From NCBI RefSeq assembly GCF_037975245.1, contig NC_092564.1, forward strand, positions 27,076,984 to 27,140,983: a stretch of DNA of 64,000 bases, in the 5' to 3' direction. Positions 6,691 to 28,460 of this stretch are shown here, piece by piece. Source of the stretch: Apostichopus japonicus. Lineage: Eukaryota > Echinodermata > Holothuroidea > Aspidochirotida > Stichopodidae. A model generated the notes under the pieces. It had not been told where the DNA came from and did no database searches. It was given only the letters and a program-made list of their open reading frames with translations. Position 1 is the stretch's first letter, and each line of letters opens with the position of its first letter. Position numbers and translations under genes: made by a program.

Positions 6691-7514
6691 TTACTCTGTA
6701 TCACTATTGTCATCTCTTCTCAATTGATCATATTGATTTTCTTCTACCACCTTCCTCTCGGGATTCCTCTTTGGTTCGTAGTTCAGTTTACAGTACCCTT
6801 TCGGTACTGTTATCCCTAACCGGGAGTAACTAGGATCTCCGGTCTCTGCTTCTCTATCGAAAGAATGTCCTAAATGTTGGTACTCGGACGATTTATCTTT
6901 GTCATCGAAGTCGACCTGAGCATAGATTGGAAAGTTTCTCTTTCCCTTGGCCTCAGAGTCGCTATTGCCAGAGTCTTCTTCGCTGCCCGATGCGAGCTTC
7001 TCGTAACCCCCTGTAGCACAATCTGATGGTTCTAAACCCCCAACGGCACCCTCACAAAAGCCAGAGTCTGTGGGCTTCTCCGTCCCATCGGCCGCTCTAC
7101 GAGAGGAGCCCCCCTGGCGACTGAAGTCTTTCTCACCTGCATTCCAATCTTTCGAAACTTCTTTCTTTAAATCATCGTCTCCAGTAAGACTGACGGCTTT
7201 CACATCAATCGGCTCTTCGTAATTCGAAGTCTTAAACTTGTCCTTGTTCAGAGCCTCTTTTTCATTAAAGATATTTCTATTCAATTTTATACCCTTTGGT
7301 AATTTACTGAAATTGTCAAGATTTTGACCGGCTTCTTTTGTGTAGAATCGCTGGGCATCCACGTCTAAGTTCGTAGATTTGCGGGGGTTCGGTTTCATCA
7401 GTGGTACGCTGGCATTTTCTGAATCTTTCGGCCTTCGGAAAGAGTTTGATATATGCTCTTCTGTGTTTTCACTCTCCACGAGAGGTGTGTTGGCAGCGAC
7501 AAATTCAGGCTCAC
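6691..7514 (-). CDS. Receptor gene exon 6: cytoplasmic tail with ITAM
   Basis: The final coding exon gives 273 residues plus stop TAA at 6691-6693. The acceptor is a pyrimidine-rich tract ending in CTCCGTAG just above 7514. The incoming phase needs two bases (GT), which complete the G left by the previous exon. The tail is hydrophilic and acidic near the middle (SEEDSGNSDSE). Tyrosine motifs crowd the last third: YEKL, YAQV, YQHL, YSRL, YCKL, YDQL. The ITAM tyrosine codons lie at about 6826-6828 and 6793-6795. I see no NPxY motif, which is present in CED-1-like tails. Confidence 0.85.
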
Positions 7515-10500
7515 CTACGGAGACGACAAAAAATAGGACATAGAACAGATGGTTTGGTCAAACATTGCAATGTGACATATACACTGTCAACTACAATACG
7601 TACCACACACGCTGAACACTAGCTTGTCAACTTTTGTTGTTTCCCATCCCAAAGTGTTACAAATGTTCACGACGTGAAAGACCAATTAAAATTTATCTCA
7701 AAGTATGTCACAGAGAATGTTGTTGGTTAACCTCCACTTTAACTTAACTACCAAGTATCTTGTTTCAATGTGCATGCTGCAAGACATTGGATGAAGGGTG
7801 TTGATAAAAATCAGGCTTCCCCAAAAGATTGAGACTAGAATAGCACATGCTTCAAGAGCATTTGGGTTATCAGACTTTGTGATTATCCAATTAAGAATAG
7901 CTCCATCTGTCACTTTTTGCACCTTTTGTTAGCAAAAGGCGACTTGAGCATATTAACTGATAATAAAATCACCAAGAAAAACAGACGAGCACGACGCACG
8001 CTTCACTTCTTAAATATATTCCAATGGTAACATTAATCAGCAAAGCTCACTCAAGAAAGGGCATTTTGTTTAAAACTGTAAATAATATTGTAGTTAAGTA
8101 CTGTGCCCTAATGTTGAAAACCTAAGTGAAATATAATGAAAAATTGCCCTTTTTGGAGGAAAACATTCAAATAATTGGAATTTGTGGTACAGAATGCACT
8201 GAGGATCACTTTTGTAGCAAAGTTTGGTAAACTTTGTGGTTTACCCCTCAAATCAAAGTCACATGTTCCACTCCTCCTCCAAGGTTTGTTCCTCCCCCCC
8301 CCCCCCTTCTCATATTCCTACACTAGATTTAACCCTTTTCTGCCACATCTGCCCTTAGGTTAACTGGAGCTAGAAGAACAGTTTTGACGAAGGTACTAAA
8401 ACTTACTACACAAAGGATTATCATTAGGGCCAAAACTAAGGAGTTAACTTCCTTTTCACATTTATACAAAAATGTTCCAAAATTTTTTATACCAAATATC
8501 TTAAAAGCCAGTTATAAAAATGAGAGACTATGACCTGCAATCAATGCCATTTTTCCTTGGAGAGATTAACTTTGAAGCACTAAACTTCTGTTAACAGTCA
8601 ACAACTTTCATTGACTGGTGACTGGCTGACACAGTGGTGAGTCTGGTGGAATCGAGCAAGTCCGGTCAAGAGGTAAAATACAGACCATATGACCCAATGT
8701 GCTCCATGTGACTGTAACATCAAACCATTTGTACAATCCTCGTTCGCAATCATTTTTATGACTGTGTCACACCCCCTTCACATTCCTTCTGTGCACAACA
8801 ATGGTAATGTTGTAGGTCACAGTATGAGAGTACTCTTGTATCGTGTGTCGTACAAGCGATCAGACACTTGTACCTTGCATTAATACGTAACCATCTCTTC
8901 AACGATGATAGCTAAGAGAATTTTTCTTGCAACATTAAACATCACGAGAAGCATTCCCAACCAAAGACTAAGATCATCAGAATACAAAAAATCATTTACA
9001 TCAACTCTCTCATAAATCTAGAGCAGAAGTGAATATTCTTCTTCAGTTTCCCGTTTGCTAATAAAAGTAATTATTCGGGAGAGAGAGAGCTTCCTCCGCC
9101 GAGGGGCGAGCGATTTTACTTCAGCGCTTCCTTATCCTTGACCACGAAAAACATCGGCGATAACAAGTGGAGAGGATACAGAGCAGAAGTACTTCAAACT
9201 GCAATCACAGAATCAAGGAGTGAACGGAAACAAAAAAATAAGAGGGTGATATTTGGAAACTAGGTCGGAAGGCAGCCCTGACGTCAGATTTAGAGTTGTA
9301 AGGGTTCAAGTCATTTTGATATTGACTGTTCCCCTCTGTAACTATTTTAAAAGCCAGTGAGAATTCCTTGCCTTGATGAAAAGATTGTCAACTTTGCCTT
9401 CCTTTATTTTGTTTTTTTAATGTTGTACCAAAAAGAGCTGCTAGAGTGTAAGTCTTCTTGACTGCTGTGTCAAAAGCAGCAGTTGGACCTCGTTCGCATG
9501 AAATGTTAACAAACCTACATGAAACAGATGGAATTGAGACGTTGATATTATAGCAATCTTTCTGTGATTAATCATTCCATTCAGTGATGACAAGTTGTAA
9601 ACCAATCAATCATGTTTGTCACATTTAGTAACAAGCACAACATGCTAACATACACAGGAGCCATAATTTAAATGACAGATTTTCTTCAGTTTTTGCTAAT
9701 GTAACCTTGATAAGAGTTAAAGCTGATGAGATTCATTGTACTAACACAAATCTTCAGGTTTAACTCGACCTTGCTTTTAATGTTAGCACAATCCACTGGA
9801 AGCTCTTGTTTCACTTGAATTCTTACTAGAAATAATTTCTTATAGAAGTGCTACATGGATAATATTTTTGTTTTCTCAGATGTGGACATCCACATTTACC
9901 CATGATTTGATCCAAGCTGGTAATGAGATCACAATATTATTAAAGGTTTGAAAGTGTGACCAGTCTGATCCCACCTCATAATGGGATCACATCACTGCTG
10001 ATGGATCGACTTTACAAAGGATAACTGTGCACTCACTACTGTCCAGCTGCTAAGAGGATCATGATACTGTTTATTGGATCAATATTGTTGTTAAGGATAA
10101 CTATACACACAAGTGTTGATCCCAACTGATGATGGGATCACATCACTGTCATAACTGTGCACTCACTAGTGTCCAGCGCTAAGAGGATCATGATACTGTT
10201 TATTGGATCAATATTGTTGTTAAGGATAACTATACACACACAAGTGTTGATCCCAACTGATGATGGGATCACATCACTGTGATAACTGTGCACTCACTAC
10301 TCTCCAGCTGCTAAGAGGATCACAATACTGTTTATTGGATCAATATTGTTGTTAAGGATAACTATACACACAAGTGTTGATCCCAACTGATGATGGGATC
10401 ACATCACTGTGATAACTGTGCACTCACTACTCTCCAGCTGCTAAGAGGATCACAATACTGTTTATTGGATCAATATTGTTGTTAAGGATAACTATACACA

Positions 10501-13500
10501 CACAAGTGTTGATCCCAACTGATAATGGGATCACATCACTGTCATAACTGTGCACTCACTAGTGTCCAGCGCTAAGAGGATCATGATACTGTTTATTGGA
10601 TCAATATTGTTGTTAAGGATAACTATACACACACAAGTGTTGATCCCAACTGATAATGGGATCAAAATAACTATGTAACTCTATGCACTCTCCATACTGC
10701 TGTTGGATCAATATTGTTAAGGATATTACTCTACAAACTCACCACTGCCTTGATCCTGGCTGGGAATGGGAATCACAACGATATTGTTGAGAGGCAACTC
10801 TACATGATCTGGCTGTGAGAAGTGATTTCTGTCAGTAAAAAGCAAACATTTGGTTTTGTCATTAAATCTAAAAACAAAAAAACAAAATAATATAACAAAA
10901 CAAAACATAAAAAAATATAAACAAAAATAATGTAATATAAAAAAAATATAAAAAAATATTAAAAACAAAATAAAAAGTTCACTATTAAAATTGTAAACAA
11001 GCTTTCAAAAGCAGTTTGGACCAGGGCTACGATAGGGATATCAAAGTGATGAAGTGGAATGAACTTTAATGCAGGATAAGAACAATGTACCCAACTGACT
11101 TGTGTATATGTACATATCAAGGGAAACAATTAAAGTGTTGGAAAAATCTAATTTAGTGAATGATATGGGCACGGCAAATTTATGCCATGTTTACAAATTG
11201 CTGTTGGCATTTACTGTATTGAAATGACGGGGCACAACAAACATTTTACGGCTTTCCAAAAGGGCATGACTGCAATTTTCAAACTTTGAAAGTGCACCTA
11301 TGTCACTTTTTTTGAGAGGGAACATGTGCATAAATAAAATAGATAGGAAGGTGTCCATTTTCATTTCCACACTTTCGGTTTAAGCATGTTCTCAGACATT
11401 TGATCGATATGTTAAAAGTGAAATGGGCAAGAACTTGATAAAATGGCACCTACAGCAACCAAATGGGACACAGGAGTTCTGGCCATCCGTTCGAGGGATT
11501 GCTAAGGGTAGTACAGTGACGAAGTACGGGTACTAACAGCATTTCGCCATCTATCAATAGATTTTGTTCAAGGCTCTGGATTTCACAGACTGAATTCTGC
11601 TTTCATGAACCAACTGGAAACTCAGATGACCTTTGACATCTTGGTCTGACTACTTATAACATCCTCAAGAGAGTAATTCTAACTTACGGTGGTTGTCGAC
11701 AATCAACCAGGGTGGGTAACAATCAGCTACTGAAACTACTTAACCCGAAACAGTTTCAATTCTGACTCCAAAGACCTTAAAAGGACATTGCATTTCCTTT
11801 TCACCGTACAACTGTACATTGCACCTCAAATTGAACAAATTATTGTCAAAACCTCCTGGAGCAAATGGACTGAAATTCACAGAAATAATTTAATGTTATT
11901 CACAAGACCTCTTGACCTTTCATCTACATGAACTGTAGAGTTAATTTAATTTCCCAGTATGTACAAGAACTTGACAATCTGCAAGCCCCATTGGTCCAAT
12001 ACTCTGCATGAGACATCCTTCAACTGTTTGATGGACAGATAAGACAAACAAATAAAAACAGACAAATGCATACACAGACATCACAACAACTGTACATATC
12101 ACTTGACTAATGCAAGTAATACATTTTGTGCCAAATTTCTCCAAATTGTTTTAACTTTCTGAGCAACAACTCACCAGTTAAATCTTGTATTATAAATTAA
12201 ACTATCAAGGACACTTTCAATGTTATTTCAATAACCAGAATATATATATTTATATTTTGTTTCCTACTGAGTAGTGCCAAACAGACAAAATCCGAAGGAA
12301 ACAATCTACTTGAAAACATCCAGGCACTTTGGATGGTAGAATGAGAAGGGCATTGACCAGAGGGGCCGGACATAGAGTGTGCACAGTGTTAAGAAGGTTA
12401 CCAGGACATTCTAGAATGAGTGTGCTAAGGTTTGGAGAGACAGGTTAGCGAGGAGCGAAGTAAATTTTCCTCCTACTGAGTGGTGCCAAACATGCAACTT
12501 GAGAAATGTTTCCTTGTGCCAATGAAAGTAAGTTTGACACACAGTGAGTTTAAACTACAACAATTTAATGAACTTATTTTAAACTATCCGCCACCCTCCC
12601 CCCCCCCCCCAAGCTCAAACGATGGTACCATTTGGTCATTAGCTTTAATTCAAAGATGACTGACAAAATTATAGAAAACAGAGGTTAAAGGTCAAAGTTT
12701 ACCTTTTATAATGTTTACGAGCATAGAGGAGAGCAGACAGAATGATGAGCACCAGGAATATGGCAGCCAGGAATGCTAGCAGTAAGATGACAGAAGGTGA
12801 CTCTATAGGTCTAGTAGAAACCAAATTTGGTAATGGTTTTACTGTGAAGGGAAGAAAATTAAAACAAAATATCAAAACAGGTAGTCGATCATAGGGGATG
12901 CAACCAAGGGTGAAGGGAGGTTGAGCAAGTTTGGGGGGGGGGGAAGTTTGAAATAATGCTTACCCTTTAATGAAGAAACATTCCTAAAAGCCTGAATTTT
13001 AAACATTTTATGAATGCAGCAAGATTATTGTGGCATATTTTGTCTCACAAGTCCTGGTCTAAGAGTGCTGTTGACAGCCTTGACAAGGTGTTCAAGTTTT
13101 CTAAAGCAAGACATCTCAATTAATTAAGAAACCAGTACACCAGCAGGCATAATAAAACTTACTGGTTTATATATTTACGAGTGACCCGCTTACCTGTCTC
13201 CCCACAACCTTAGCACCACATTCTACTGTGTCTAGAATGCCCTGGTAATCTTTTAACACTGTACACCCTAATGGCCCTAATGGCCTTCCTTCATTTTGAG
13301 ACCACTTTCCCACAAAGTGGCCCCTGACGCGACCTCGGGGGGGTGGCGGGTAAACCCCGCCACCCGCCGAGCTCGCCGAGAAGGAAAAAATCCCCGCTAG
13401 CAACCTGCTAGACCAAAAAGAAGCAACACTCACCGATAGACAAGCAGCCAAAGGCGACCTCGAAGGTGGTGGTGTCTATCGACGAGAACGCTCGGAGTAA

Positions 13501-16500
13501 AAAGTCAGGTCGAACGACCGCTCCTCCGTCCGGCTGCGTCCCACCTCCCTCGGGGGAGGGTGGCGGGAAATGGAGACAGGTAAGCGGGTCACTCGTAAAT
13601 ATATAAACCAGTAAGTTTTATTATATTTACTTCGCTCCCCGCTTACCTGTCTCCCCACAACCTTAGCACCGAGTGGCACTGCCCGATGGTGGGAGGCCCG
13701 AGGGGTGGGACCTAGGACCACCCAGACCTCGCAACACCGAGCGACCAAATGCTGACTCGGCCTGTAGAGTGTCCGATAAGTAGCAGGCGACGAAAGTGGT
13801 TGGAGTCTTCCAAGCCGCCGCCTTGAGTATATCCTCTACTGGAATTCCTGCGAACAGGGCTGTCGAAGCAGCGACACCCCTGATATCGTGGGCCCTTGGT
13901 CTGTCTGGCCCTGTGGCAAAAGGGCGGATGGTCTCCACTAGCCAACGGGACAAGGTATCTTTCGAGGCCGCTGAGTAAGGCGCTCGAGGGAGAATGAAGA
14001 GGGACGTCGAGGTACCTCTGAGAGCTTCCGTCCTGTGTAAGTACCACTTGAGAGCTCGAACAGGACACCACAGTCTGTCCTCGGGAATCGAGGAGGCGGT
14101 CTTGATCTCCGGGATAAAGATGTCCCCCGGGAGGAAGTTTAGGACCTGGTTCTTGGCGATAAAGGATGGGTCTGGGACCATCCGCACCCCCTGGTTCTCG
14201 AACCGAATGTGGTTTCTCTTAGTGGAAAGCGCATGAAGGCAACTTCTCCTTCTTGCCGAGGCTAGGGCGATCAGGAACAGAGTCTTCTTGGTAAGAACCG
14301 CTAGAGATGCCCGTGCCATAGGCTCGTAAGGCGCCCTAGTCAGGGCGTGCAGCGTGGCTGAGAGTCCCCAGGAGGGGGCGAGGCGTCGGACTCGTGGGCG
14401 CTTGTTCGCCATACCCCTTAGTAGCTGGGCAATTTCTCTGTTGTTGCCTGGCGTTGAGCCGTCGGGGAAACCCCGGTGGATGGCGGCGATGGCCGAGCGG
14501 TAATTCCTGATCGTCGACACCTGCTTGCCTTCTTGGAATAATGTGAGCAGGAAGTCGGCGACCGTGGTTAGAGAGGCGTCGGTAGGCAGAGCCTGTCTAG
14601 TCTGACACCATCCTCCGAATCTCCGCAGGCGGGAATCGTAAGTCGCAATAGTGGATCTTCTCCTGGCGTTGGCTGCCATCGCGGCAGCTGGCTCTGAAAG
14701 TCCTCTCTGTCTGAGGGAAGATCTGACAGTTTCCAGGCAACTAGTCGTAGCCCCTTGATATCTGGGTGGGCTAGCGTTCCCCGTCTCTGGGACAGCAGAT
14801 GGGGCGTGTCTGGAAGGATTGCTGGTATGTCCGCGAGGAGTTGGAGGATCTCCCCGAACCAAGGTCTGCGTGGCCAAAAGGGGGCCACCAGGATGAATCT
14901 CCCCCTGGAGGACCTGATTTTCCTCAGCACCTGGCTGATCATGCAGAGAGGTGGAAATAGGTAGGCGTCCAGTCCGTCCCATGACAGGGACATGGCGTCT
15001 ATGTGAAAGGCCTGTGGGTGGAATCCCCTGGAGCAAAAGGTGGGCAGCCTGTTGTTGTCCCCTCTCGCAAACAGGTCGATCAAGGGTCTGCCGAACCTGA
15101 GGAAGATCCTGTCGCAGGTCTGTTGTGAGAGGGTCCACTCGTTGGGGTCGAGATGTCCCCTGGATAGGGCGTCGGCCATCACATTGTCCTTTCCGGCTAT
15201 GTGTGAGGCTCGTAGGACCATGCCGGAATCTGAGGCTGTGGTGAGTACTTCCCATGCCAGACGGCACAACTTGTCTGATCTGGTGCCGCCCTGTCTGTTG
15301 ATGTAGGCCACCACCGTCGTGTTGTCTGAGAAGATGGTGACCCGGGTGTTCCGGACTTGAGTGTGGAAGGCTTCCAGAGCCCGCTGAACTGCCAGCATTT
15401 CGAGGACGTTGATGTGGAGGTACTGTTCCTGTACTGACCACGTTCCCCAGGCTGTTCGATTGCCCCAGTGGGCGCCCCATCCCGAGAGCGAGGCGTCGGT
15501 TGTGACCGAGGTCATCGGGAGGTTGCAGGTAAAGGGAACTCCCTGGTTCCAGAGCCTCGGTGTGTTCCACCACTGTAGGTGTTGCGTGGCTTCTTCCGAC
15601 TTGCTGATCGGTGTGGTCATGAGCAGGTCGTTGTAGCCTGGGAACTGTTGAAGGTGCAGCTGCAGGGGACGCATGTGTAACCTGCAGAGGCTGACGAGGT
15701 CGACCATGCTCGCCATGAGCCCTAGGGCCTGGAGCCAGGTACGGGATGGTGATGTCTGACTGGTCAGGATAAGGTTCGTGGTACCCACGACTGAGTCTAT
15801 CCTCTCTTGTGACGGTCTGGCAACCCCGGTTGTAAAATCGATTGTTGCCCCCAGGAACTGGATGGTCTGGGTGGGGGTCAGTCGGGACTTCTCCTCGTTG
15901 ACTATCCACCCCAGCTCCTGGAGGGTACTGACTGTCTTGAAGACGTTGTCGGCTGTCTCCGACTGTGAGTTGCCTACTACTAGCCAGTCGTCTAGGTACA
16001 CGTATAGGGTAACTCCCCTCCTTCTTAGAAAGGAGACTGTCGCTCCTGCTACTCTGGTGAATACCCTCGGGGCGGTGGAGAGCCCGAACGGGAGGGACCT
16101 GAAGAGGTAGTCTCTGCCGTCGTAATGGAAGGCTACGTAGCGGCGATGCTCCCTGTGCAGTGGAATGTGTAAGTAGGCGTCCTTTAGGTCTACGGTCGCC
16201 GCCCACATGCCCTTTCTGAGAAGGGGTAAGACAACATGTAGGTTTTCCATGCGGAATCGTTTTGGCCTGACAAACTTTTGGTTGAGGGGTTTGAGGTTTA
16301 AGATGGGACGCCAGGTTCCGTCCCGTTTTGGTGTGAGAAAGAAGGACGACCGGAAGAGGGGTCCTGTCCCCTCCGGCGCCTCTATAACTGCCTGCTTGGC
16401 CAGCAGGGCCGCAATCTCCCCCTCGAGAGCCAATTTTTGGACGGGGTCCGTGGGTGTCGGTGTTCGCCTTCCTCCGCCCCCGAAGGGTGGGCTGGAGGTG

Positions 16501-18603
16501 AATTCTATTCTGTAGCCATTTGCGATAGTATCCAACACCCACTTGTCCCCGGTGATAGTTTCCCATAGGTGGGAAAAGTTTGAAAGTCTCCCCCCCACCG
16601 GCGGTTTTTCCGCGGTGAGGTGGGCACCCCTAGGGCCGAGCGGCGAACGACGGTCTGGAGGAGCGGTCGTTGTCACGTCTGGTGGATGAAGGCGGAGCTC
16701 TGTTTGCTCCCCGTGCTACCCATGGGCGTGAAGGCCGCGAGGGCCGGTTGAAGGATCCACGACCCCTGCCCCGAGGGGCGCCTCTTCCTGACTGTCTGGG
16801 GGGTTGGTTTCTGCCCCTTGAGGGTCTACTTTCCCTCGGTCGTTGGGGCCTCGGCTTGGATCTTTCCGATGACCGGAATTCTGACTTTGCGAGGGTCTCT
16901 CTCCTTGCAACTTCCTCTTGCAGCTTCTGCTGGAAGCTCCCAGCGAAGAGATCGTCCCCAAGGGACGGGAGGGAAAGCATCCGGGTCTTAGCCTCGATGG
17001 AGGGCCACCTGATTGACGAGACGACATTCTCGCGACGGGCTTTCACTGAGCGGACTGCCACCCTGGCGAATTGATCAAAGGCTAGTCGCACCAGCGGACT
17101 CAACATGAGTAGAAGCTGGCCTGTCTCTGGTCTTGTGACCTGGCCTTCGTCTTGGGGGAGCTGTTGGTGGTATCGCATGAGGACTTCCGCCGTGAGCATG
17201 AGGACGGAGGTGAACTTCATGCCGGCTCTTGCTGCCGTGTCAAAATCTACCAGCAGGTCGTCCAATTTCCGCTGGTCCTGATGCTTGAAAATGTGAGCGG
17301 AAGACGATGACGACGCTCCCTGGTCTGCCCTCAGCTTCTCTTTTGCCTCCTGAGGGATGGAGGGGCACTTGAACAACTCCTTCCACACTTCCTCTGGGAC
17401 TCTGACGGCCCGTTCCGCCTTCGCTGGGAATGCCGTCCATCGGCGTTTCTCTGCGACGGCCTCAAATCTGTCATAACAGGAGGGATCCACTGGCATAGTG
17501 GACTTTGGGCGCTGTGAAGCCTCCCCTGTGGAAGTGAGTTTGGAAACTCGAGCTGGGCGCTGTGGCTGAAGCTCCGGCTCGTCGAACCCTAGGTGCCTCC
17601 GGAAAATCTCCGCGGCTCTAGCTGTGAGCTCTGGAGGTAGAGTGCCTCCTGACATAGGTGGTTCTTCTTCCTCCGGGAAGCGGGGGAAGGTCTCCTCTCT
17701 GGTGCCGAAGTCTGAATGGTCGACTTCGTCCTCCAGGTCGGACAGGTTTGCTGAAGCCCTGCAATCCAGTACATCCTCGCCCCGGAAAGATCGTGGGGTT
17801 CTCGCCGGACTTTCCGTGGGTCGTCCATGACCCCCGGTGTCTGGGTTGGGTCTCAGATGTTCTCCCTCCAGTAGGGGGCGGAGGAGGCCTGTCAGTCGTG
17901 TCATCCACGCTGGCTCTTCCTCCTGTCGCCGTCCTGGGGATCGGCGTCTCCTCTTGGACTTTCGGAACCCGTCGTCAGAGGAAGGTGATCGTTCATCGGA
18001 GGGTGGAGATAACTGTCTCTCCCTTCTCCGGGGTGACCTGGACTGGGGTCGGTTGTCCCTTTGAGGGTCGTTTCTGCCTCTGCTCCCCCGTTCTGGGGAC
18101 CTGGCAGCAGGCGTTCTCCTCGGCTCCCGACTACGGGACCGGCTCAGGCTCGGGTTAGGCGGTCGTCTGACCGGGCTCCTGTTCCTGCTCCCGTGGTGTT
18201 GGGATCTAGCAGTAGTTAGGTCCGTCGGCTCCCGGCTGTGGGACCGAGCTGGGATCCGTCTAGGGGATCGTCGTGTTGGGCTTCTGCCCCTGCTGCCCCG
18301 TCTTGGGGACCCAGCAGTAGATCGTGGTCTTGGTTCCCGGCTTTGGGATCGATCTCTGCGTCGGAGGGGAATCTCGGTTCCGGTCTCCCTCTGAGGTCTC
18401 GCCGGACCTTGGCTCTCCTGAGCCGTTCTCTTAGCGCGCACCACAACGGGTGCCGCTCTCTGCGACCCGGACGGACTGTCCGTTCTGGTCGTCTTTCTTA
18501 TGGGCTTCTTGCTGGCCGAAGCCTTGCCCTTGCCCTTGGTGTTACTTCCGGACAACGCCGGCACCTTGGGTGGCAAACTCTCCTCCCTTTCTCTTTCTCT
18601 CTC

Positions 18604-18637
<34 letters not shown>

Positions 18638-21600
18638 GCCCTCTCCTGGCCTCTCTCCATCTCTACTCCCACCAACTCTCGTACTTCCTCGTCCTCTGAC
18701 TCTCCTACGACCCCCTCTCCAGAGGGGCCGTGTGGGTTTGGTGATCGGTCTAGATTCTCCTGGCCTTCTAGCCAGGTATCGATATGTTGCCACTGCGTCG
18801 GTGTGAAAACGATACAGACCAAACAAGGGTCTCTGCGACTACAAGTCCTGCACTTAGGACAGAGATCGTGGTCATCCCACGCCCGACCCGGGCGGAACAG
18901 TGAACAATTCACACATTTGAGGTGGCTTCTAGACATGTCTGAAACACCCACATTAAGGAGAGATATTGGAAAAGTCTAACGTATAACAACGAAAACACCC
19001 AGAGGAGGAAGTGGGGTGGGACGTAGGCTAACAGAGAGTAGAGTTACGTCTAACAACATCGCGCCCCGCTAGGGGCTCGCGGCTTACAAGATACGTTACA
19101 AGGTGAACAACTTCCGACTGAATGGAAGCAACGTAACTAACATATATGCATCGAAACTTTGAAGAACGAACAAGTAAGAGAGAGAACCCCCCTCCGCGAA
19201 CCCGCGGAGGGGGGAACAAGGCTACGAGGTACGTCCTAAGTCATGAGACTCAGGGAACGCACGTAGCCACCACGGGAGAGAACATGAAAATATACGACGA
19301 TATATGAAAACAAGGTTACTCCCCTCTTAACATGAGAAACAACGAACGAACCGACTATCCCGACTAACTAGGGGATAGCGGAACGAGGCTTACAAATTAC
19401 GCTACAAGGGTGACAAACCCACCCAAAAGCGTAAGAAAACGAAAGTACATGAAGCAAGCAAAATCTTATGAAAACAAGAAAAGCTGAGCTCAAGTACATA
19501 CGAAGAAAACATGCCTATCCGCGTAAACAAGGCGGTAAAGGCAACGCTACAAAAAACGCTACAAGGTGCAAACCCACGCAAAAAGCGTAAGAAGTAACGA
19601 AAGTACATGAAACAAGCAACACATCTTATGAAAGTAAGAAAAGCTGAAACACATGTACATACGAAAATACATGCCTATCCGCGTAAACAAGGCGGTATAG
19701 GCAATGAACAAAGTAGTTTCGCAGAACTACTACCTGTTACACAAAAAGTTACGTAAGAAAAAACGAACGCATGTGCGAGAGTGTACAATGAAAACAGCCC
19801 CCAAAAACACCCTTCCCTACAAGAAAAGGATACTTATCAGGCTGGAAAGGATCCCTGGAAGAGAAGAAGTCCTGATAGGAAACTTCTACTGGTATAAATC
19901 CAAGGATTCCGGGCGAAATTCGCGAATTTTTTCTAGCTTCCGAAAAACGTAGCTAGACACTTTGTTGGTAGAAAAATGAAGGAAGGCCATTAGGGCCATT
20001 AGGGTGTACAGTGTTAAAAGATTACCAGGGCATTCTAGACACAGTAGAATGTGGTGCTAAGGTTGTGGGGAGACAGGTAAGCGGGGAGCGAAGTAAATTT
20101 AATGATTCCTTGCCTTAGAAGGTTATACTGTATATGGAATCATCTGATTGATAGAATGAGGAAAATGTTGCCTGTGTGCCAAGTAAACTAAGTTAGCTAA
20201 CATTACATGAACTCATCAATATGTGGAAATGATCTAAAACAAGCCCTGCTGAAAACTCATACTTTTAGCAATGTAGAATTATTGAGTCGATTTTGATCAA
20301 TTGGTGTATACTTGAATTTAATACCAAATTTGATCATAAAATCCCATAACAATGTAGGTGCAGCTTCCATTTCAAATAATGAAGTTAGAGACCAAACTTT
20401 CTGAACTTATCACATTGTTCTTTTCGTGCAGATTATACCGACATGAACATTTTTCGGGCAAACACAATGTCGGGGATTCTACTAAATTCATTAATTACTC
20501 CCTGAAGAACTTACATTTGCTGAAAAGATCTACCAGGTTCCCCTTTTGATAACTCGAAAGCAAATACGTAACAGCATTAAGTATTTTCAATTATTTTACG
20601 CCGAAGAAAATGCATAAAAGCTAAACAGTGCTGTGCAGCCAAACTTAAGTTGCACTCTGAGTTTTCGTAAGTGACCACACCCAGAGTTCAACTACACAAG
20701 TATTCCTTCTTTGACGAGGTAAGAGTTAAATCTCTGACAGGATAAGAATACAGACCGTACCTACAATAGACGATGATATCGAAGGAAAGACATAGGCGGC
20801 CTGAGTGGATTGTCTCTCTTCTGTGGTAGTTAATACAGTAGTTGTTAATAGTGTGGTAGTTTCTATAAAGCACTCGCCAGTGATGTGGTCGCATGGCCAA
20901 CCTTTACACGTGCACGGATTGGAGCATTTCTTTCCAAAGAATCCCTCGGTGCAAGGTTCATGACAGGCGTGTCCCGACCAGCCTGGAAGACATTCGCATA
21001 CACCCGTGAGGGAGTCGCAGGTGGAATTATTTATACAAGAATGGGGACAGTGGGAGGTGCAATTATCTAAATGAATGGCAGGATCGCATACGCTGCAGTC
21101 TTCTCCGAGGTATCCGAGAGGACAGACACACCTCTTGCTATGAGTATCGCAATAACCATCGTTGATACACTCGAAGCTGCAGATGTTCAGACAGCCGTCT
21201 GGGTGAATTGACGGCACACATCTATCACAGGTTTCTTGTTCGTATCCGTAATCACAAATACACTGCTGCAAGGAGGTGTCACAATGTCCATATTTACAAA
21301 TCACAGGACAATAATTAGAACAATGTTGTCTATGAGAGGTCTGGTTGCAGAATCCGCACGCACTGCCGTAATATCCGGGAGCACATGCGCACTCTCTCTT
21401 GGTGATGTTACAGAGGCCATCGTTCATACAGACGATACCATTACAAGCAGGAGCACACTGCTCAGGGTTCATCTCGGGGTCACACATACTACAGTCATGA
21501 CCAGAATAAGACTTTGGACATCGGCAGGCCTCGATTCGGGTATCGCAGTAGCCGGCCTTGCATTCGTACATGCAATGCTCCAGGCATCTATTGGAATGGT

Positions 21601-22997
21601 CCATGGGGTCGCAGTACCCGCAGTCACTGTTGAGGTACCCGGTCTTACAGGTACAGGTAGACAATGACATGTCACACAGGGCATCGTTCTGGCACACTAC
21701 GGCTCCTCCTCCACAGGATCCACAGACGTCTGGCAGTTCGACAGGATTACAGAGGTTACATTCACGACCAGAGTAGCCATCTATACAGTGGCAGGCATCT
21801 GCTGTCTGTTTACAGCTTGTCCCTAACTGACAGTCTGAATCACTGCAGAGCTCTAGGCAAGAGTATGGATCACTAGGATGATAGGGGCAGGCTTGGTCAC
21901 ACTGGTCTCCAGTCAAGCCCCGGTCGCATGTACAGGTGTTATCTATGCAAGTAGCTCCTGACACGCAGTCACATTTGAAATCTGACGACAGAAAAAGAGA
22001 ACAGACACATTTCACTTGAAAGAACTCTTTGAGTTTATTAAAAGATATGTTTTCTTCTAATAGCTGAGTGAGTGTGCAGCTAGTGGAGGAAGCAACTCTA
22101 TTACTTACATGCATCAGGCCAATGGCAACGATGTCCAGCCTGCACAATGGAATCACAAGGTGGTGGAGGATCATTCCTGTAGAGTATAAGAGTAGACCGA
22201 ATAAGTACTTTATGAAAAAATTAACGGGGGGGGGGCGACAAGAAAACAAAAAGAGGGGCATGAGACATTGAAGAGAAACAATGCAGCAAAAGTTTCTGAA
22301 CTTGATCAACTTGTTATGCTGAAGGCAGCATGAATGTGCTTAAGATGTATAAAAGTCACATGTCTAGTATTTTTAGTGATATGATGCCATCACATGATAC
22401 CACAACTAGAGACTGGTGGGGATGAAGCAACATAGCTGAAAACTAAGCACAGAGATTACGTATGGATATCATACCTATATTTAAATGACAAGTCTTTGCT
22501 TAAAATAACATACTATCCAGAAACACAACAGCCCCAGTGATTCTGTATATATACCATATTATATGACAACCTTTCATGTAAAACTGCATACAGGATTGTC
22601 AAGTTCTGACCTCAAATGATCTTTGACCTCCAAAAGTTACCATGGTTACAAAGATTTCAGACCATTTTGGCAGGTAGTGACTTCTAACCTTCACAGAGAA
22701 CAATTCTTCTTTGTATGAGTAAAATGGTTCCATACACCCCGGTATACACTGCATCACAAGGTTTGCAGAATTTTACCTCTGATTGCCTCAAACGACCTTT
22801 TTGCCTTCACACTATGTACTAAGTAGGATTAAAACAACCAGTATAAAGTTCAACCAATGCACTTTTTGAGATTTTCTTTTTACGAGAGCCATCACTTGCT
22901 TTTACTCTTACCATGTGTCGGCAGCAGCTGCAACTCCGAGAACCACAGCTATCAACAAACATTTCCTGAATCTTCTCCATACCCAGAATTCTGCCAT
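6691..22997 (-). CDS. Multi-EGF transmembrane receptor with cytoplasmic ITAM (MEGF/Draper-like), spliced gene
   Basis: Likely a cell-surface phagocytic or scavenger receptor. I joined exons 22997-22912, 22435-22401 (candidate), 21981-20761, 12841-12703, 10867-10743 and 7514-6691. Every junction has GT-AG borders and matching phase (2-2, 1-1, 1-1, 2-2, 1-1), and the total is 2430 nt, 809 residues plus stop. Domains in order are a signal peptide (about 1-26), EGF-like modules (about 41-425), a Thr-rich stalk, a transmembrane helix (about 464-488) and a tail (489-809) with YEKL, YQHL, YSRL, YCKL and YDQL plus YAQV. YSRL-x7-YCKL is a canonical ITAM at about residues 765-779. CED-1, Draper and MEGF10 share the EGF-TM-tyrosine-tail plan, and Draper signals through an ITAM via Src and Syk-family kinases. 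Orthology to one named gene is not shown: most modules carry eight cysteines and a Cx-P-xxH-xxxC lead-in unlike classical MEGF10. The third intron carries a DIRS element in the same orientation. Confidence 0.8.
7515..9894. other. Receptor intron 5, unique part
   Basis: Intronic AT-rich DNA with no exon-like open frame that I can support. It contains a C-run near 8295-8310 and a short GC-richer patch around 9075-9180 (GAGAGAGAG followed by CCTCCGCCGAGG). I assign no function to that patch. Confidence 0.5.
9895..10735. repeat. Minisatellite, about 131-bp unit, related to the adjacent exon
   Basis: Units recur with GGGATCACATCACT-like phase points at 9985, 10136, 10267, 10397, 10529 and 10660, so spacing is 130-132 bp after a first longer step. 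Each unit contains GATCCCAACTGATAATGGG, CTCCAGCTGCTAAGAGGATC and TTGGATCAATATTGTTGTT. The 10743-10800 exon edge reads like a diverged unit (TTGATCCTGGCTGGGAATGG), and the outermost piece near 9907 (GATCCAAGCTGGTAATGAG) resembles the exon most. The array therefore abuts, and probably derives from, the 3' edge of exon 5 and its donor region. Copies lack the GTGAGT donor. Confidence 0.8.
10743..10867 (-). CDS. Receptor gene exon 5: juxtamembrane cytoplasmic segment
   Basis: A 125-nt exon encoding 41 full codons (FNDKTKCLLF...IPSQDQGS). The acceptor is TTTTTAG after an unusually long T-rich tract (minus strand, 10868-10970). The donor is GGCAGTG|GTGAGT, a strong match. Phase in is 2 (AG+A gives Arg) and phase out is 1 (G+GT gives Gly), both fitting the neighbouring exons exactly. 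The 3' end lies at the border of the minisatellite. Confidence 0.8.
10868..12702. other. Receptor intron 4
   Basis: This intron starts at the donor AAAAG|GTAAAC and ends in a ~100-nt T-rich tract on the minus strand (10868-10970) that serves as the polypyrimidine tract. It contains one DIRS terminal-repeat remnant (12284-12470). I support no other gene in it. Confidence 0.6.
12284..12470 (-). mobile_element. Truncated DIRS 5'-terminal remnant
   Basis: Contains GTGCACAGTGTTAAGAAGG, a diverged GCTAAGGTTTGGAGAGAC and the terminal AGCGAGGAGCGAAGTAAAT, which match the right end of the complete DIRS at 13.15-20.10 kb. Internal coding DNA is missing. The remnant lies between two 22-bp near-identical direct repeats (12262-12283 and 12471-12492; they begin TCCTACTGAGT). 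Confidence 0.7.
12703..12841 (-). CDS. Receptor gene exon 4: transmembrane segment
   Basis: A 139-nt exon bounded by acceptor CCCTTCACAG and donor AAAAG|GTAAAC. It encodes 45 full codons: a short extracellular stalk (KPLPNLVSTRPIESPS), a hydrophobic run of about 25 residues rich in Leu, Ile and Ala, then a basic stop-transfer RKHYK. Phase in 1 and phase out 2 join it precisely to exons 3 and 5. The positive residues just inside the membrane support a type I topology. Confidence 0.85.
12842..13149. other. Receptor intron 3, part left of the DIRS insertion
   Basis: Ordinary intronic sequence with a G-run near 12935-12950. No feature is seen. Confidence 0.5.
13185..13297. repeat. DIRS left inverted terminal repeat core
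   Basis: 113 bp, the exact reverse complement of 19973-20085. It contains CTTACCTGTCTCCCCACAAC and CTAATGGCCCTAATGGCC. Outside the shared core, the left terminus continues to about 13150 with a sequence different from the right terminus (ATATTTACGAGTGAC on the left, TTTACTTCGCTCC on the right), as is usual for DIRS elements. Confidence 0.92.
13572..13670. repeat. DIRS internal complementary region
   Basis: The first part (13572-13623) is the reverse complement of the left outer end (13150-13201). The second part (13625-13670) repeats the outermost right end as read on the opposite strand. The two termini are therefore joined head to head, the arrangement proposed to template circularisation of DIRS replication intermediates. 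The recombinase stop codon lies inside it. Confidence 0.9.
13663..14679 (-). CDS. DIRS tyrosine recombinase (YR)
   Basis: Catalyses DNA strand exchange for integration of the element. The N-terminal part (SRLRRFGGWCQ...TIRNYRSAIAAIHRGFPDG) resembles the core-binding domain of tyrosine recombinases. The catalytic part shows the first Arg in ASARRRSCLHAL, the H-x-x-R box in RAHDIRGVAAS, and the nucleophile Tyr in TFVACYLSD. I chose ATG 14679 because the core domain begins right there. The frame is open much further upstream (to 16566), but that part only shadows the RT frame. The chosen frame overlaps the end of the RT frame by about 110 bp, in another phase. About 338 residues. Confidence 0.85.
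   Translation of the reverse strand: MAANARRRSTIATYDSRLRRFGGWCQTRQALPTDASLTTVADFLLTLFQEGKQVSTIRNYRSAIAAIHRGFPDGSTPGNNREIAQLLRGMANKRPRVRRLAPSWGLSATLHALTRAPYEPMARASLAVLTKKTLFLIALASARRRSCLHALSTKRNHIRFENQGVRMVPDPSFIAKNQVLNFLPGDIFIPEIKTASSIPEDRLWCPVRALKWYLHRTEALRGTSTSLFILPRAPYSAASKDTLSRWLVETIRPFATGPDRPRAHDIRGVAASTALFAGIPVEDILKAAAWKTPTTFVACYLSDTLQAESAFGRSVLRGLGGPRSHPSGLPPSGSATRC
14568..16676 (-). CDS. DIRS reverse transcriptase / RNase H
   Basis: Copies element RNA into DNA. RT motifs in order are VDLKDAYLHIPL, SLPFGLSTAPRVFTRV and the catalytic YLDDWLVVG. RNase H follows with VTTDASLSGWG, INVLEMLAVQRALEAF (Glu), TIFSDNTTVVAYI (Asp) and HIAGKDNVMADALSR (Asp). The C-terminal section (LIDLFARGDNN, DGLDAYLFPP, VAPFWPRRPWF) is typical of DIRS polymerase proteins. 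There is no ATG near the beginning: the frame opens at GTG 16676 inside the end of gag and is offset +1 to it, so expression may need frameshifting, reinitiation or a fusion. About 700 codons without a stop. Confidence 0.93.
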   Translation of the reverse strand: MTTTAPPDRRSPLGPRGAHLTAEKPPVGGRLSNFSHLWETITGDKWVLDTIANGYRIEFTSSPPFGGGGRRTPTPTDPVQKLALEGEIAALLAKQAVIEAPEGTGPLFRSSFFLTPKRDGTWRPILNLKPLNQKFVRPKRFRMENLHVVLPLLRKGMWAATVDLKDAYLHIPLHREHRRYVAFHYDGRDYLFRSLPFGLSTAPRVFTRVAGATVSFLRRRGVTLYVYLDDWLVVGNSQSETADNVFKTVSTLQELGWIVNEEKSRLTPTQTIQFLGATIDFTTGVARPSQERIDSVVGTTNLILTSQTSPSRTWLQALGLMASMVDLVSLCRLHMRPLQLHLQQFPGYNDLLMTTPISKSEEATQHLQWWNTPRLWNQGVPFTCNLPMTSVTTDASLSGWGAHWGNRTAWGTWSVQEQYLHINVLEMLAVQRALEAFHTQVRNTRVTIFSDNTTVVAYINRQGGTRSDKLCRLAWEVLTTASDSGMVLRASHIAGKDNVMADALSRGHLDPNEWTLSQQTCDRIFLRFGRPLIDLFARGDNNRLPTFCSRGFHPQAFHIDAMSLSWDGLDAYLFPPLCMISQVLRKIRSSRGRFILVAPFWPRRPWFGEILQLLADIPAILPDTPHLLSQRRGTLAHPDIKGLRLVAWKLSDLPSDREDFQSQLPRWQPTPGEDPLLRLTIPACGDSEDGVRLDRLCLPTPL
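16630..18936 (-). CDS. DIRS gag-like protein, Cys-rich and SR/RE-rich
   Basis: First ORF of the element, about 768 residues from ATG 18936. The N-terminus has a cysteine cluster (CVNCSLFRPG, CPKCRTC, CLVC) that probably binds metal. It is followed by a run of Glu-Arg dipeptides coded by a (CT)n tract (about 18596-18650), then a long Arg-Ser domain, an acidic middle, a more folded stretch (RFEAVAEKRRWTAFPAKAER), and a C-terminal RG-rich tail. DIRS first ORFs are considered Gag equivalents, though their sequences are poorly conserved. It overlaps the RT frame by 47 bp. Nuclear targeting by the SR/RG regions is my inference. Confidence 0.75.
18937..19972 (-). repeat. DIRS 5' leader with a 160-bp tandem duplication
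   Basis: Non-coding leader between the right terminal repeat and gag. ATGCCTATCCGCGTAAACAA occurs at 19511 and 19671, and the surrounding 160-bp blocks (about 19381-19700) are similar throughout, including AAAGTACATGAA and ATCTTATGAAA. Further left are short G/C hairpins such as CCCCTCCGCG with CGCGGAGGGG near 19189-19213. Any short open frames here are probably not genes. Confidence 0.6.
19973..20085. repeat. DIRS right inverted terminal repeat core
   Basis: The exact reverse complement of 13185-13297 over 113 bp. The right end then extends to about 20098 with GGAGCGAAGTAAAT, the same terminus kept by the truncated relatives at 12.4, 39.7, 40.3 and 42.5 kb. Confidence 0.92.
20099..20760. 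other. Receptor intron 3, part right of the DIRS insertion
   Basis: Intronic DNA between the DIRS end and the donor GTAG|GTACGG of the EGF exon. No additional feature is supported. Confidence 0.5.
20761..21981 (-). CDS. Receptor gene exon 3: EGF-like repeat array and Thr-rich stalk
   Basis: A 1221-nt exon with acceptor TTTTTCTGTCGTCAG and donor ATTGTAG|GTACGG. It codes 406 full codons. About eight Cys-rich modules follow one another. Six start with a CxPxxHxxxC-like lead-in (for example CDPMDHSNRC, CVPSIHPDGC, CDPAIHLDNC) and end in CxCxxGYxGxxC. The last module (CTEGFFGKKCSNPC) looks like the MEGF/SREC type. A Thr-rich stretch (TTTLLTTTVLTTTEE) precedes the membrane exon and is a likely O-glycosylated stalk. 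All modules lie in a single exon, unlike many vertebrate EGF genes with one exon per module. Confidence 0.9.
22401..22435 (-). CDS. Candidate 35-nt microexon 2 of the receptor gene
   Basis: Exon 1 ends in phase 2 and exon 3 starts in phase 1, so at least one exon must lie between them. This 35-nt piece follows an acceptor with a good pyrimidine tract (GTGCTTAGTTTTCAG) and ends at G|GTATCA. It supplies the required phases and would add YVASSPPVSSC with no stop. The donor is only moderate, and other candidates in 21982-22911 cannot be excluded. Confidence 0.35.
22912..22997 (-). CDS. Receptor gene exon 1: signal peptide
   Basis: ATG at 22997 opens 28 codons: a basic start (MAEFWVWRRFRK), a hydrophobic core (CLLIAVVLGVAAAA), then DT. 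This is a convincing signal peptide with cleavage near AAA-DT. The donor is ACATG|GTAAGAG, phase 2. Upstream, TCCTTTTCCATAG at about 23067 could be an acceptor of a 5' UTR exon. Other short ATG frames in this stretch have neither a signal sequence nor the matching donor. Confidence 0.7.
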
Positions 22998-24440: not shown

Positions 24441-24798
24441 TCTTACTGCTTTGGATATTTACGAGTGATGAGCTTATACCTGTCTCCTCACAACCTTAGC
24501 ACTCCCTATGCAAGATAGGATACTTATCGGGCTTTGCACGACTGATAAAGCTGCTCAATTATCCAATGGACGCAAAAACTATGATCCTTGCTCCCTGTTC
24601 CGAACGAATTACGTAGAAATTAATCCAGACAAAAACACATGGTGCTGACACTTTGGATGGTAAAATGAGAAGGGAGGGCATTGACCGGAGGGGCAGGTCA
24701 TAGAGGGCGCACAGTGTTAAAAGGTTACCAGTTCATTCTAGGCATGGTAGAATGTGAGTGCTAGGGTTGTGGGGAGACAGGTAAAAGAGGAGAAATTT
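24441..24798. mobile_element. Short non-autonomous DIRS derivative with both ends
   Basis: The left side (ATATTTACGAGTGATGAGC...CCTGTCTCCTCACAACC) matches the DIRS left terminus. The right side (GCACAGTGTTAAAAGGTTAC...GTTGTGGGGAGACAGGTAA) matches the right terminus. Only about 350 bp separate them, with leader-like pieces such as GGATACTTATC and no coding capacity. It is diverged from the intact element. Confidence 0.75.
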
Positions 24799-25019: not shown

Positions 25020-28000
25020 TATAGCCAACACTTTTGTGATCACCGTAAATGTGATCAGATTTTATATCAAAAGGCACTTTTGAGATCTAAATATGGCGTC
25101 GAAAATGTAAGAAATATAAGAGACCTACAAGCGTGTCAACAGATATGATAACAATGGTGACCTCAGATGACATGACCTTGAAGTTTCAAAATGTTCCACC
25201 ACCCCATTCACAACTTGTCCCAAAATATCAACCATGTCACACCTTGGCATTGAGATTTAATTGCATTAAATGTCAAAAAATTAACTTTTGAACTTGTATG
25301 TAACTTTACACACAAAGGTCACCCGGAGGTCAACCAATTGACATTTTTGATCGGTGAGACCTAAATAGACCATGACTGTAAAAATTCAAACATTTTTTCT
25401 TTGCCCATTTTCTCCCCCCATAATACTACTTTTTTAACATTAGCTGACCTTTGGTGACCTTGGATCACATGACCGTTAAGTTTGAAAATATTCCCCTATA
25501 CCATTTGCAACTTGTCCAAAAAAATCAACCTTGTCACACCTTGGCACTGGGAGTTAATGCATTAAATGTGTGAAAATTAACTTTGACCTCAAATAACTTC
25601 GCACACGAAGGTCAAATGGGGGTCAACCCATTGACATTTATGATCAGAAGTACCTTTAACATCTGAAAATAGCATCGAAACTGTAAAAATCCACAAAACA
25701 CGAAAAGGTCACCAGAGGTCAAATTGAGGTCAAGGGTCACCCAGATGCGGGTCAACAATTGGATTACATTGGAGCAACTCCCAACCCTAACGGACAATTT
25801 GTTCTTAAGTTGTCGCAAAAATACTAGTTTTTTATCATTAATTGACCTTTGGTGACCTTGTATCACATGACCGTTAAGTTTGAAAATATTCCCCTATACC
25901 ATTTGCAACTACTCCAAAAATATCAACCTTGTCACACCTTGGAACTGGGAGTTATTGCATTAAATGTCTGAAAATTAACTTTGACCTCATATAACTTCGC
26001 ACACGAAGGTCACACAGGGGTCAACCTATTGACATTTATGATCAGAATGTACCTTTGACATCTGAAAATAGCATCGAAACTGTAAAAAATCCACAAAACA
26101 CGAAAAGGTCACCAGAGGTCAAATTGAGGTCAAGGGTCACCCAGATGCGGGTCGACAATTGGATTACATTGAAGCAACTCCCAACCCTAACGGACAATTT
26201 GTTCTCAAGTTATCGCAAAAAATACTAGTTTTTTATCATTAATTGACCTTTGGTGACCTCGGATCACATGACCGTTAAGTTTGAAAATATTCCCCTATAC
26301 CATTTGCAACTTGTCTCAAAATATCAACTGTGTAACACCTTGGCACTGGGAGTTATTACACTAAATGTCTGAAAATTAACTTTGACCTCATATAACTTAA
26401 CATACAAAGGTCACCTTGGGTCAACTTATTGACATTTTTGATTGATGAGACCTAAATTAGAGCATCAAACTATAAAAATTCAAACATTTTTTTCTTTGCC
26501 CATTTTCTACCCCCAAAATACTAGTTTTTTGACATTAATTGACCTTTGGTGACCTCGGATCACATGACCGGTAAGTTTGAAAATATTCCCCTATACCATT
26601 TGCAACTTGTCCAAAAATATCAACCATGTCACACCTTGGAACTGGGAGTTGTTGCATTAAATGTGTGAAAATTAACTTTGACCTCGTATAACTTCGCACA
26701 CGAAGGTCACACGGGTGTCAACCAATTGACATTTATGATCAGAAGTACCTTTAACATCTGAAAATAGCATCGAAACTGTAAAAATCCACAAAACACGAAA
26801 AGGTCACCAGAGGTCAAATTGAGGTCAAGGGTCACCCAGATGCGGGTCAACAATTGGATTACATTGGAGCAACTCCCAACCCTAACGGACAATTTGTTCT
26901 TAAGTTGTCGCAAAAATACTAGTTTTTTATCATTAATTGACCTTTGGTGACCTTGTATCACATGACCGTTAAGTTTGAAAATATTCCCCTATACCATTTG
27001 CAACTACTCCAAAAATATCAACCTTGTCACACCTTGGAACTGGGAGTTATTGCATTAAATGTCTGAAAATTAACTTTGACCTCATATAACTTCGCACACG
27101 AAGGTCACACAGGGGTCAACCTATTGACATTTATGATCAGAATGTACCTTTGACATCTGAAAATAGCATCGAAACTGTAAAAAATCCACAAAACACGAAA
27201 AGGTCACCAGAGGTCAAATTGAGGTCAAGGGTCACCCAGATGCGGGTCGACAATTGGATTACATTGAAGCAACTCCCAACCCTAACGGACAATTTGTTCT
27301 CAAGTTATCGCAAAAAATACTAGTTTTTTATCATTAATTGACCTTTGGTGACCTCGGATCACATGACCGTTAAGTTTGAAAATATTCCCCTATACCATTT
27401 GCAACTTGTCTCAAAATATCAACTGTGTAACACCTTGGCACTGGGAGTTATTACACTAAATGTCTGAAAATTAACTTTGACCTCATATAACTTAACATAC
27501 AAAGGTCACCTTGGGTCAACTTATTGACATTTTTGATTGATGAGACCTAAATTAGAGCATCAAACTATAAAAATTCAAACATTTTTTTCTTTGCCCATTT
27601 TCTACCCCCAAAATACTAGTTTTTTGACATTAATTGACCTTTGGTGACCTCGGATCACATGACCGGTAAGTTTGAAAATATTCCCCTATACCATTTGCAA
27701 CTTGTCCAAAAATATCAACCATGTCACACCTTGGAACTGGGAGTTGTTGCATTAAATGTGTGAAAATTAACTTTGACCTCGTATAACTTCGCACACGAAG
27801 GTCACACGGGTGTCAACCAATTGACATTTTTGATCGGAAGGTACCTTTGATATCCAAATCTAGCATCAAAACCAAACATTTTCTTTTTTGCTCGTTTCCT
27901 CCCAAAATAAGCACATTTTTTCTAATGTGACCTTTGACCTTTTGACCTTGGTTTCAGATGTAGTTTAATCTCCTGATTCCAAAAAACAAAACGAAAAGTC

Positions 28001-28460
28001 TGTACAACCATCCTAACTCCGACCGAAAAACTTTGACCCCATATAACTTCGCACATAAAGGTCACACGGGGTCAACCTATTGACATTTATGATCAGAAGG
28101 TACCTTTGACATCTGAAAATAGCATCGAAACTGTAAAAATCCCAAAAACACGAAAAGGTCACCAGAGGTCAAATTGAGGTCAAGGGTCACCCAGATGCGG
28201 GTCGACAATTGGATCACATTGAGGCAACTCCCAACCCTAACAGACATTTCGTTCTCAAGTTATCGCAAAAATACTAGTTTTTTATCATTAATTGACCTTT
28301 GGTGACCTCGGATCACATGACCGTTATGTTTGAAAATGCTCCCCTAACCAGTTCACAACTTGTCCCAAAATATCAATCTTGTCGCACATTGGCACTGGGA
28401 GTTATTGCAGTTTCAATATTTTCGGTTTTTGGACCATAACTGACCTTTGGTGACCTTTGT
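25020..28460. repeat. Complex satellite with 1095-bp higher-order unit
   Basis: TGACCTTTGGTGACCT recurs at about 25446, 25843, 26244, 26539, 26938, 27339, 27634, 28296 and 28441. Successive steps are close to 397, 401 and 295 bp, and the set repeats after 1095 bp with almost identical sequence (25612-26706 against 26707 onwards). The outer copies near 25.1-25.4 and 27.9-28.4 kb are more diverged. Five copies carry a block of four AGGTCA-like half-sites starting at 25706, 26106, 26801, 27201 and 28156. The 84-residue open frames inside are by-products of the repeat. Confidence 0.9.

Follow-up and report, generated by a model that had tools for sequence, protein, structure and literature searches.

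The distribution of Syk is treated in a paper by Staal and colleagues. On the basis of that distribution, ITAM receptors upstream of Syk were inferred to be ancient, invertebrates included (PMC5978004, section on these receptors). That section and the related passages name no ITAM receptor of an invertebrate deuterostome; in the main text of PMC5978004, sea urchin, starfish and Strongylocentrotus are unmentioned, and 'echinoderm' occurs once, in the reference list. The ITAM consensus is given as D/E-x2-Y-x2-L/I-x6/7-Y-x2-L/I in a passage of PMC3135164, and passages of PMC10366216 and PMC9388098 describe Draper and MEGF10/Jedi as signalling via Shark or Syk. For ITAM and EGF receptors in echinoderms and invertebrates, the titles and abstract starts of the best-ranked literature matches listed included none on an echinoderm receptor of this kind; one sea urchin paper contained ITAM solely within its reference list.

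Here, a receptor gene was analysed in a window of 64,000 nucleotides (the whole stretch of DNA under study, G000:C4:27076984-27140983 of a 672-Mb assembly of 35 contigs). With a probability of roughly 0.55, the gene would encode a type I receptor that is coupled to Syk via an ITAM, has an immune or phagocytic output and is not an orthologue of Draper/MEGF10. Unless a contig is stated, positions are those of the window.

Gene model

The receptor gene lies on the minus strand (6691-22997). Its six exons were joined into 2424 bases encoding 807 residues and ending on the stop codon TAA, as follows:

22912..22997, minus strand: exon 1, start codon and signal peptide (by eye) MAEFWVWRRFRKCLLIAVVLGVAAAADT; donor gtaagagtaa, phase 2 out
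22109..22176, minus strand: exon 2 (68 bases), short linker with two cysteines and without EMI match; acceptor tactctacag, donor gtaagtaata, phase 1 out
20761..21981, minus strand: exon 3, EGF array (seven modules and one terminal module) and Thr-rich stalk; phase 1 out
12703..12841, minus strand: exon 4, membrane helix (about residues 476-499) and basic stop-transfer ARKHYKR; hydropathy peak 3.3, windows from 475-476
10743..10828, minus strand: exon 5 (86 bases), juxtamembrane
6691..7514, minus strand: exon 6, cytoplasmic tail with six YxxL/V sites, and stop codon

All five introns (735, 127, 7919, 1874 and 3228 bases for introns 1-5) are bounded by GT-AG, the acceptors are pyrimidine-rich and the phases are 2, 1, 1, 2 and 1. 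The donors of exons 1-5 read GTAAGA, GTAAGT, GTACGG, GTAAAC and GTGAGT, the weaker ones being those of exon 3 (GTACGG) and exon 4 (GTAAAC). An earlier sequence-only reading had proposed exons with matching phases, a microexon included, that encode a signal peptide, an EGF array, one membrane helix and a tail. This structure was recovered in the six-exon, 807-residue model, in which the frame closes on TAA and the signal peptide was identified by eye.

The EGF exon lies in an open frame of 537 codons and the tail exon in one of 288. Both frames are longer than any stop-free run (maximum 196) in 200 simulated 16.3-kb sequences with the base-neighbour composition of the window's remainder. GC content was above that of the flanks in five of the six exons, the exception being the membrane exon (40.3% versus 40.8%).

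The joining of an EGF exon and a tail exon from different genes would be a highly improbable explanation of this model. Such an artefact would fit with the length of the last three introns (7.9, 1.9 and 3.2 kb), with the DIRS-type retroelement inside the 7.9-kb one, with the two weak donors and with a model built from sequence alone. Against it, each of the five junctions has matching splice signals and phases, and when exons 2-5 were omitted singly, the loss of exon 2, 4 or 5 led to an early stop (the loss of exon 3 kept the frame). In addition, a 19-residue hydropathy scan picked a single helix across the whole protein and placed it in exon 4, so the EGF exon is without a helix of its own.

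When exon 5 was omitted, the protein ended after residue 505, at ARKHYKR. Exon 5 is therefore required, because the frame without it stops directly behind the membrane helix. The exon could also be a switch between a signalling form and a tail-less decoy; the exon-5-skipped form would be comparable in effect to Draper-III, which has no ITAM according to a passage of PMC10366216.

Repeats and mitochondrial sequences

The 7.9-kb intron contains an element (13149-20103) with long minus-strand frames, a match to RVT_1 (4.5e-22) and a tyrosine-recombinase N-terminal domain; from these component parts it was read as a DIRS-type retroelement. Its inverted end repeats (113 bases, 13185-13297 and 19973-20085) are 100% identical, which suggests a recent insertion. 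Four short stretches (12325-12455, 24649-24792, 36574-36652 and 39656-39734) are 79-96% like the retroelement ends or one another, and are possibly solo ends or small non-autonomous relatives. A tandem array at 10021-10664 (131-base unit, about 4.9 copies) lies 78 bases off exon 5, and another at 45818-46971 consists of a 19-base unit repeated about 60 times with 90% matches. Nested duplications occupy 25155-28409, with a 398-base unit and a 1.6-kb block repeated at 95% identity.

Contig C35 of the assembly carries COX1, followed by an ND4L-like frame and COX2 (names read from the translations). Under table 9, the asparagines in the COX1 motifs FSTNHKD, GGFGNWL and FPRMNN, which we take to be invariant, are written AAA; codes 5, 13 and 2 give lysine. 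Table 9 is the mitochondrial code of echinoderms, and of flatworms too, and the gene order cox1-nad4L-cox2 is the echinoderm one. Code and gene order make an echinoderm the most likely host. Five more COX1 matches were found in pieces at G000:C29:14745-31219; they may be copies in the nuclear genome or belong to a second mitochondrial contig.

Extracellular modules

The protein begins with the signal peptide; a two-cysteine segment of about 25 residues and a short cysteine-rich piece then lead into the seven modules and the terminal module, behind which come the Thr-rich stalk, the membrane helix and a tail of about 300 residues. The hydrophobic run of the signal peptide is short and falls under the 1.6 threshold of the 19-residue hydropathy scan, and the EGF array begins about 25 residues behind it.

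An HMM search of the spliced protein, suggested earlier as a check, was carried out with Pfam (E <= 1). Four EGF matches were returned, all weak: EGF_laminin (4.1e-4), EGF_2 (0.006), EGF_Teneurin (0.0076) and EGF_TEN (0.29); an EMI domain was absent among them. The match to PF00053 (EGF_laminin, residues 362-410) scored 20.9 bits, just under the curated cut-off of 21, which leaves the protein outside laminin-type membership. Searched module by module (E <= 1), six of the seven modules matched EGF_2, four EGF_Teneurin, three EGF_laminin and three EGF_PEAR1L.

Against solved sequences, the protein gave four matches at E <= 0.01: 6u11_A ('EGF-like domain-containing protein', 3.3e-11, residues 321-426) and three Tie2 chains (from 1.2e-4). 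A literature search on structure 6u11, the best match, found no paper. At E <= 0.001, a profile of the modules matched 33 solved sequences. Notch, WIF1 and SCARF1 (E 1.7e-8) are among them, so the profile acts as one for EGF domains in general.

Most receptor modules have eight cysteines per 43-46 residues with the spacing 8,2,8,3,3-4,4-5,6,1. The second module deviates more strongly (8,2,6,5); the terminal module, with 8,3,1,4,6, is close to the classical form. The classical spacing 8,3,8,3,1,5,6,1 was found in a MEGF-like stretch of the same genome (250 residues, C4:26.07 Mb) and in human MEGF10 modules. When both cysteine patterns, composed after the modules had been inspected, were counted, the altered form was present in five modules of the receptor and none of the MEGF-like stretch, and the classical form in none and five, respectively. 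By these spacings, the eight-cysteine frame is common to the receptor and to MEGF proteins, and the two differ in a C-x3/4-C loop in place of C-x-C and in a C-x2-C linker. The claim that the modules are not of the classical MEGF10 pattern holds for the loop lengths; 'eight cysteines', which had been part of it, does not set them apart, because MEGF-type modules have eight too. What had been called a 'CxPxxHxxxC lead-in' is present in the module consensus, as the loop between cysteines eight residues apart.

Cytoplasmic tail

Six of the nine tail tyrosines stand in YxxL/V sites (five YxxL and one YAQV). Coordinates were derived by hand from the exon model, and those of the ITAM from the exon model and a motif scan:

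6994..7005, minus strand: YEKL (Y704)
6913..6924, minus strand: YAQV (Y731)
6871..6882, minus strand: YQHL (Y745), in the ITIM-type context SEYQHL
6784..6837, minus strand: ITAM DPSYSRLGITVPKGYCKL, residues 760-777
6721..6732, minus strand: YDQL (Y795)

YSRL-x7-YCKL at residues 763-777 (Y763 and Y774), with D760 in the -3 position, has the strict spacing that the sequence-only reading had described, and the three other YxxL and the YAQV of that reading are those at residues 704, 745, 795 and 731. Residues 760-777 match the full ITAM consensus, as stated in a passage of PMC3135164, behind one membrane helix. Across all six frames of the window, the strict form has a single hit, at these residues; a looser form (x6-8) occurs five times in the window's open frames of at least 30 codons, and once in a frame of more than 60 codons, that of the receptor tail. 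The ITAM is about 260 residues away from the membrane, and the YxxL/V sites about 200 to 300 residues. No NPxY was found in the 807-residue protein by motif scan.

The 303-residue tail was shuffled 100,000 times: five or more YxxL were obtained in two shuffles, six YxxL/I/V in 32, and any YxxL/I-x6-8-YxxL/I in 0.47%; the strict ITAM form appeared in 135 of 200,000 shuffles. The YxxL cluster is clearly non-random, which is strong evidence for a tail of predicted phosphotyrosine sites. When the six tetrapeptides were kept and re-dealt within their segment, 50% of trials gave a pair with x6-8 spacing and 8.8% gave the strict form. With six sites placed randomly in 92 positions, some pair stood at a distance of 10-12 in 60% of trials and at exactly 11 in 26%; for the five YxxL alone, these shares were 46% and 18%, respectively. 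Given the cluster, the exact ITAM spacing is non-random at best weakly. The use of the spacing as strong evidence in itself was rejected, the chance given the cluster being 8.8% for the strict form and 50-60% for the loose ones.

These frequencies bear on a rather unlikely reading, in which the tail would be a multi-site SH2 docking platform without a true ITAM: each YxxL/V alone would recruit partners of the Src, SHP-2, PLC-gamma or NCK type, and the spacing would be incidental, as the re-dealt tetrapeptides allow. SEYQHL matches the ITIM consensus, which fits docking as well. So does CED-1, which, in a passage of PMC9388098, has no ITAM and carries a single YXXL that is phosphorylated by SRC-1 and bound by NCK-1; there, CED-1 Y1019F fails to rescue engulfment. 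The acidic -3 residue and the spacing, which conform to the strict consensus, and the presence of Syk argue against docking of this kind.

Sorting signals for AP-2 follow the rule Yxx-hydrophobic, into which all six sites fit, and usually lie much nearer the membrane than 200 to 300 residues. An endocytic scavenger receptor, with YxxL/V sites as AP-2 signals and an EGF array that takes up ligands, would also agree with the SCARF1 structure among the solved matches of the module profile. It is nevertheless quite unlikely, given the distance of the sites from the membrane and their number, since six copies exceed the need. The ITAM reading rests on the full consensus together with the Syk gene of the genome.

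Syk in the genome

The genome was searched with the SH2 family, which gave 82 matches (124 scored candidates); 20 stretches, covering 25 of the 82 matches, were translated and one candidate was searched further. This candidate is a Syk-family locus on the minus strand of C2 (25.125-25.162 Mb), with two SH2 exons and kinase exons. The N-SH2 exon (C2 25161429-25161662) matched 11 Syk/ZAP-70 sequences, tandem chains, at 6.6e-33 to 1.3e-30 (best 60 of 231 matches); the next other kinase among the matches listed was ABL2 at 4e-14. Downstream of it on the same strand, the exon C2 25156000-25156137 resembles the second SH2 of Syk (by eye, against one Syk chain). Downstream of the SH2 exons, on the same strand, the kinase exons carry a G loop, HRDLAARN and DVWSYG. 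Two of them matched ZAP-70 (2.3e-48) and SYK (about 2.4e-46), then 7t6f ('Tyrosine-protein kinase', 9.1e-40) and TYK2 (1.6e-35); their top match, at 9.7e-60, was 9p9u, a chain that is named EGFR and was matched over two stretches. Ankyrin repeats were absent across 42 kb of the locus by a simple pattern, a weak test against Shark. The C2 locus was read as a probable Syk orthologue. With Syk in the same genome as the receptor, the pathway implied by the ITAM would therefore be available.

Related loci and descent

The EGF exon was searched against its own genome (E <= 0.001; 102 of 157 candidates scored) and matched itself and at least 41 other stretches (best 1.0e-11). All 41 matches start at or after query residue 253, i.e. 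protein residue 304, and the first five EGF modules are thus without a reported relative at this threshold. The membrane helix and tail (E <= 1) matched the window's own three exons, with no second copy. Within reach of both searches, the receptor gene appears to be single-copy. At G000:C4:26069402-26076149, the open frames of a MEGF-like EGF coding region extend over 777 and 590 codons, which is long for modules of this type.

The head of MEGF10 gave ten matches in the genome at E <= 0.01, three of them over the EMI part, all on the plus strand of C4:

C4 4036420, plus strand: EMI-part match, E 2.7e-10, 49% identity, one stop in the stretch
C4 4076288 and C4 4288195, plus strand: EMI-part matches, E 6.2e-4 and 8.2e-4

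At each locus, the part just behind EMI was matched about 1.4 to 4 kb downstream (4040577, 4077827 and 4289932), and matches of the EGF exon followed further downstream (4047241; 4082058 and 4087445; 4297133). From these neighbouring matches at unassembled loci, about 23 Mb from the window, we infer EMI-EGF genes. A search of the genome with the EMI family gave 0 matches, and its controls were silent too. The MEGF10 tail gave 0 matches in the genome, in a search without positive control, and showed no significant similarity to the receptor tail (best E 2.3).

Assignment to the CED-1/Draper/MEGF10 type had been suggested. The YxxL/ITAM tail agrees with it; family membership does not follow, the receptor having no EMI match, no NPxY and altered loops in place of the 8,3,8,3,1,5,6,1 spacing, and EMI-like loci being separate. 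For ITAM receptors, the strict consensus in a tail behind one membrane helix and a Syk-family kinase in the genome were both found. A diverged echinoderm orthologue of Draper/MEGF10 would share the eight-cysteine frame per 43-46 residues and the near-classical spacing of the last module, and was given very little chance. The receptor is probably not such an orthologue, because it has neither an EMI match nor an NPxY, its tail shows no significant similarity to that of MEGF10, and separate loci match the EMI part of MEGF10 at up to 49% identity. The best reading of the gene is a receptor that is Draper-like yet separate and would signal through Src-type kinases and Syk. That it works like Draper is plausible, and engulfment may be its function.

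Proposed mechanism

If the gene is expressed as modelled, the disulfide-rich rod of laminin/MEGF-like EGF modules would bind a ligand, and the receptors would cluster. A Src-family kinase would then phosphorylate the tail tyrosines, and doubly phosphorylated Y763/Y774 would recruit the tandem SH2 domains of the host Syk. Further partners with one SH2 domain may be recruited by the neighbouring YxxL/V sites, or these sites may set the threshold. Signalling would lead to phagocytic or immune activation, in the manner of Draper-Shark and MEGF10/Jedi-Syk.

The complete phase-consistent gene, the YxxL cluster, the strict consensus, Syk in the genome and the precedents of Draper and MEGF10/Jedi count for this Syk-coupled reading. 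Counting against it are the chance of the spacing (8.8% strict, 50 to 60% loose), the roughly 260 residues between ITAM and membrane, the lack of an NPxY for a CED-6/GULP-type adaptor, the possibly endocytic or single-SH2 nature of the YxxL/V sites and the top match 9p9u. More specifically, and tentatively, the gene might be a dedicated one-chain echinoderm ITAM receptor outside the Draper/MEGF10 line, one of the invertebrate receptors inferred upstream of Syk.

With an ITAM in its tail and a Syk gene in the genome, the receptor can be put to the test as a candidate Syk-coupled receptor of invertebrate immunity or engulfment, and a concrete strict-ITAM gene in a likely echinoderm that bears Syk makes the inference of ancient ITAM receptors testable. 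An independent origin of its ITAM would mean that EGF ectodomains acquired the immune-receptor code more than once. The case also separates two things that are often merged, namely Draper-like working and descent from Draper. The parts are known. As far as the open papers listed show, what is new is their combination in a likely echinoderm: a strict one-chain ITAM together with altered MEGF-type modules, and neither EMI nor NPxY.

Comparison with known systems

Draper (fly), MEGF10 and PEAR1-Jedi (vertebrates) and CED-1 (worm) are likewise single-pass proteins with an eight-cysteine EGF-type array and a long YxxL-type tail. Compared with Draper, MEGF10 and CED-1, the receptor is without EMI match and NPxY, its C-x3/4-C loop is expanded and its C-x2-C linker shortened; it has the strict ITAM spacing, which human MEGF10 is not known to have. 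SREC/SCARF1 also combines one membrane helix with an EGF array, which in this family comes without EMI, and a SCARF1 structure is among the matches of the module profile; no ITAM is known from SREC tails. The laminin-type EGF (PF00053) has the eight-cysteine module in common with the receptor, whose gene as a whole is that of a membrane receptor. Fc receptor gamma, CD3 and Ig-alpha/beta carry the same D/E-x2-YxxL-x6/7-YxxL (passage of PMC3135164), and the genome studied here likewise has Syk. Unlike these vertebrate immunoreceptors, the receptor has no immunoglobulin domain among its four Pfam matches, and it unites predicted ligand binding and the ITAM in one chain with an EGF ectodomain.
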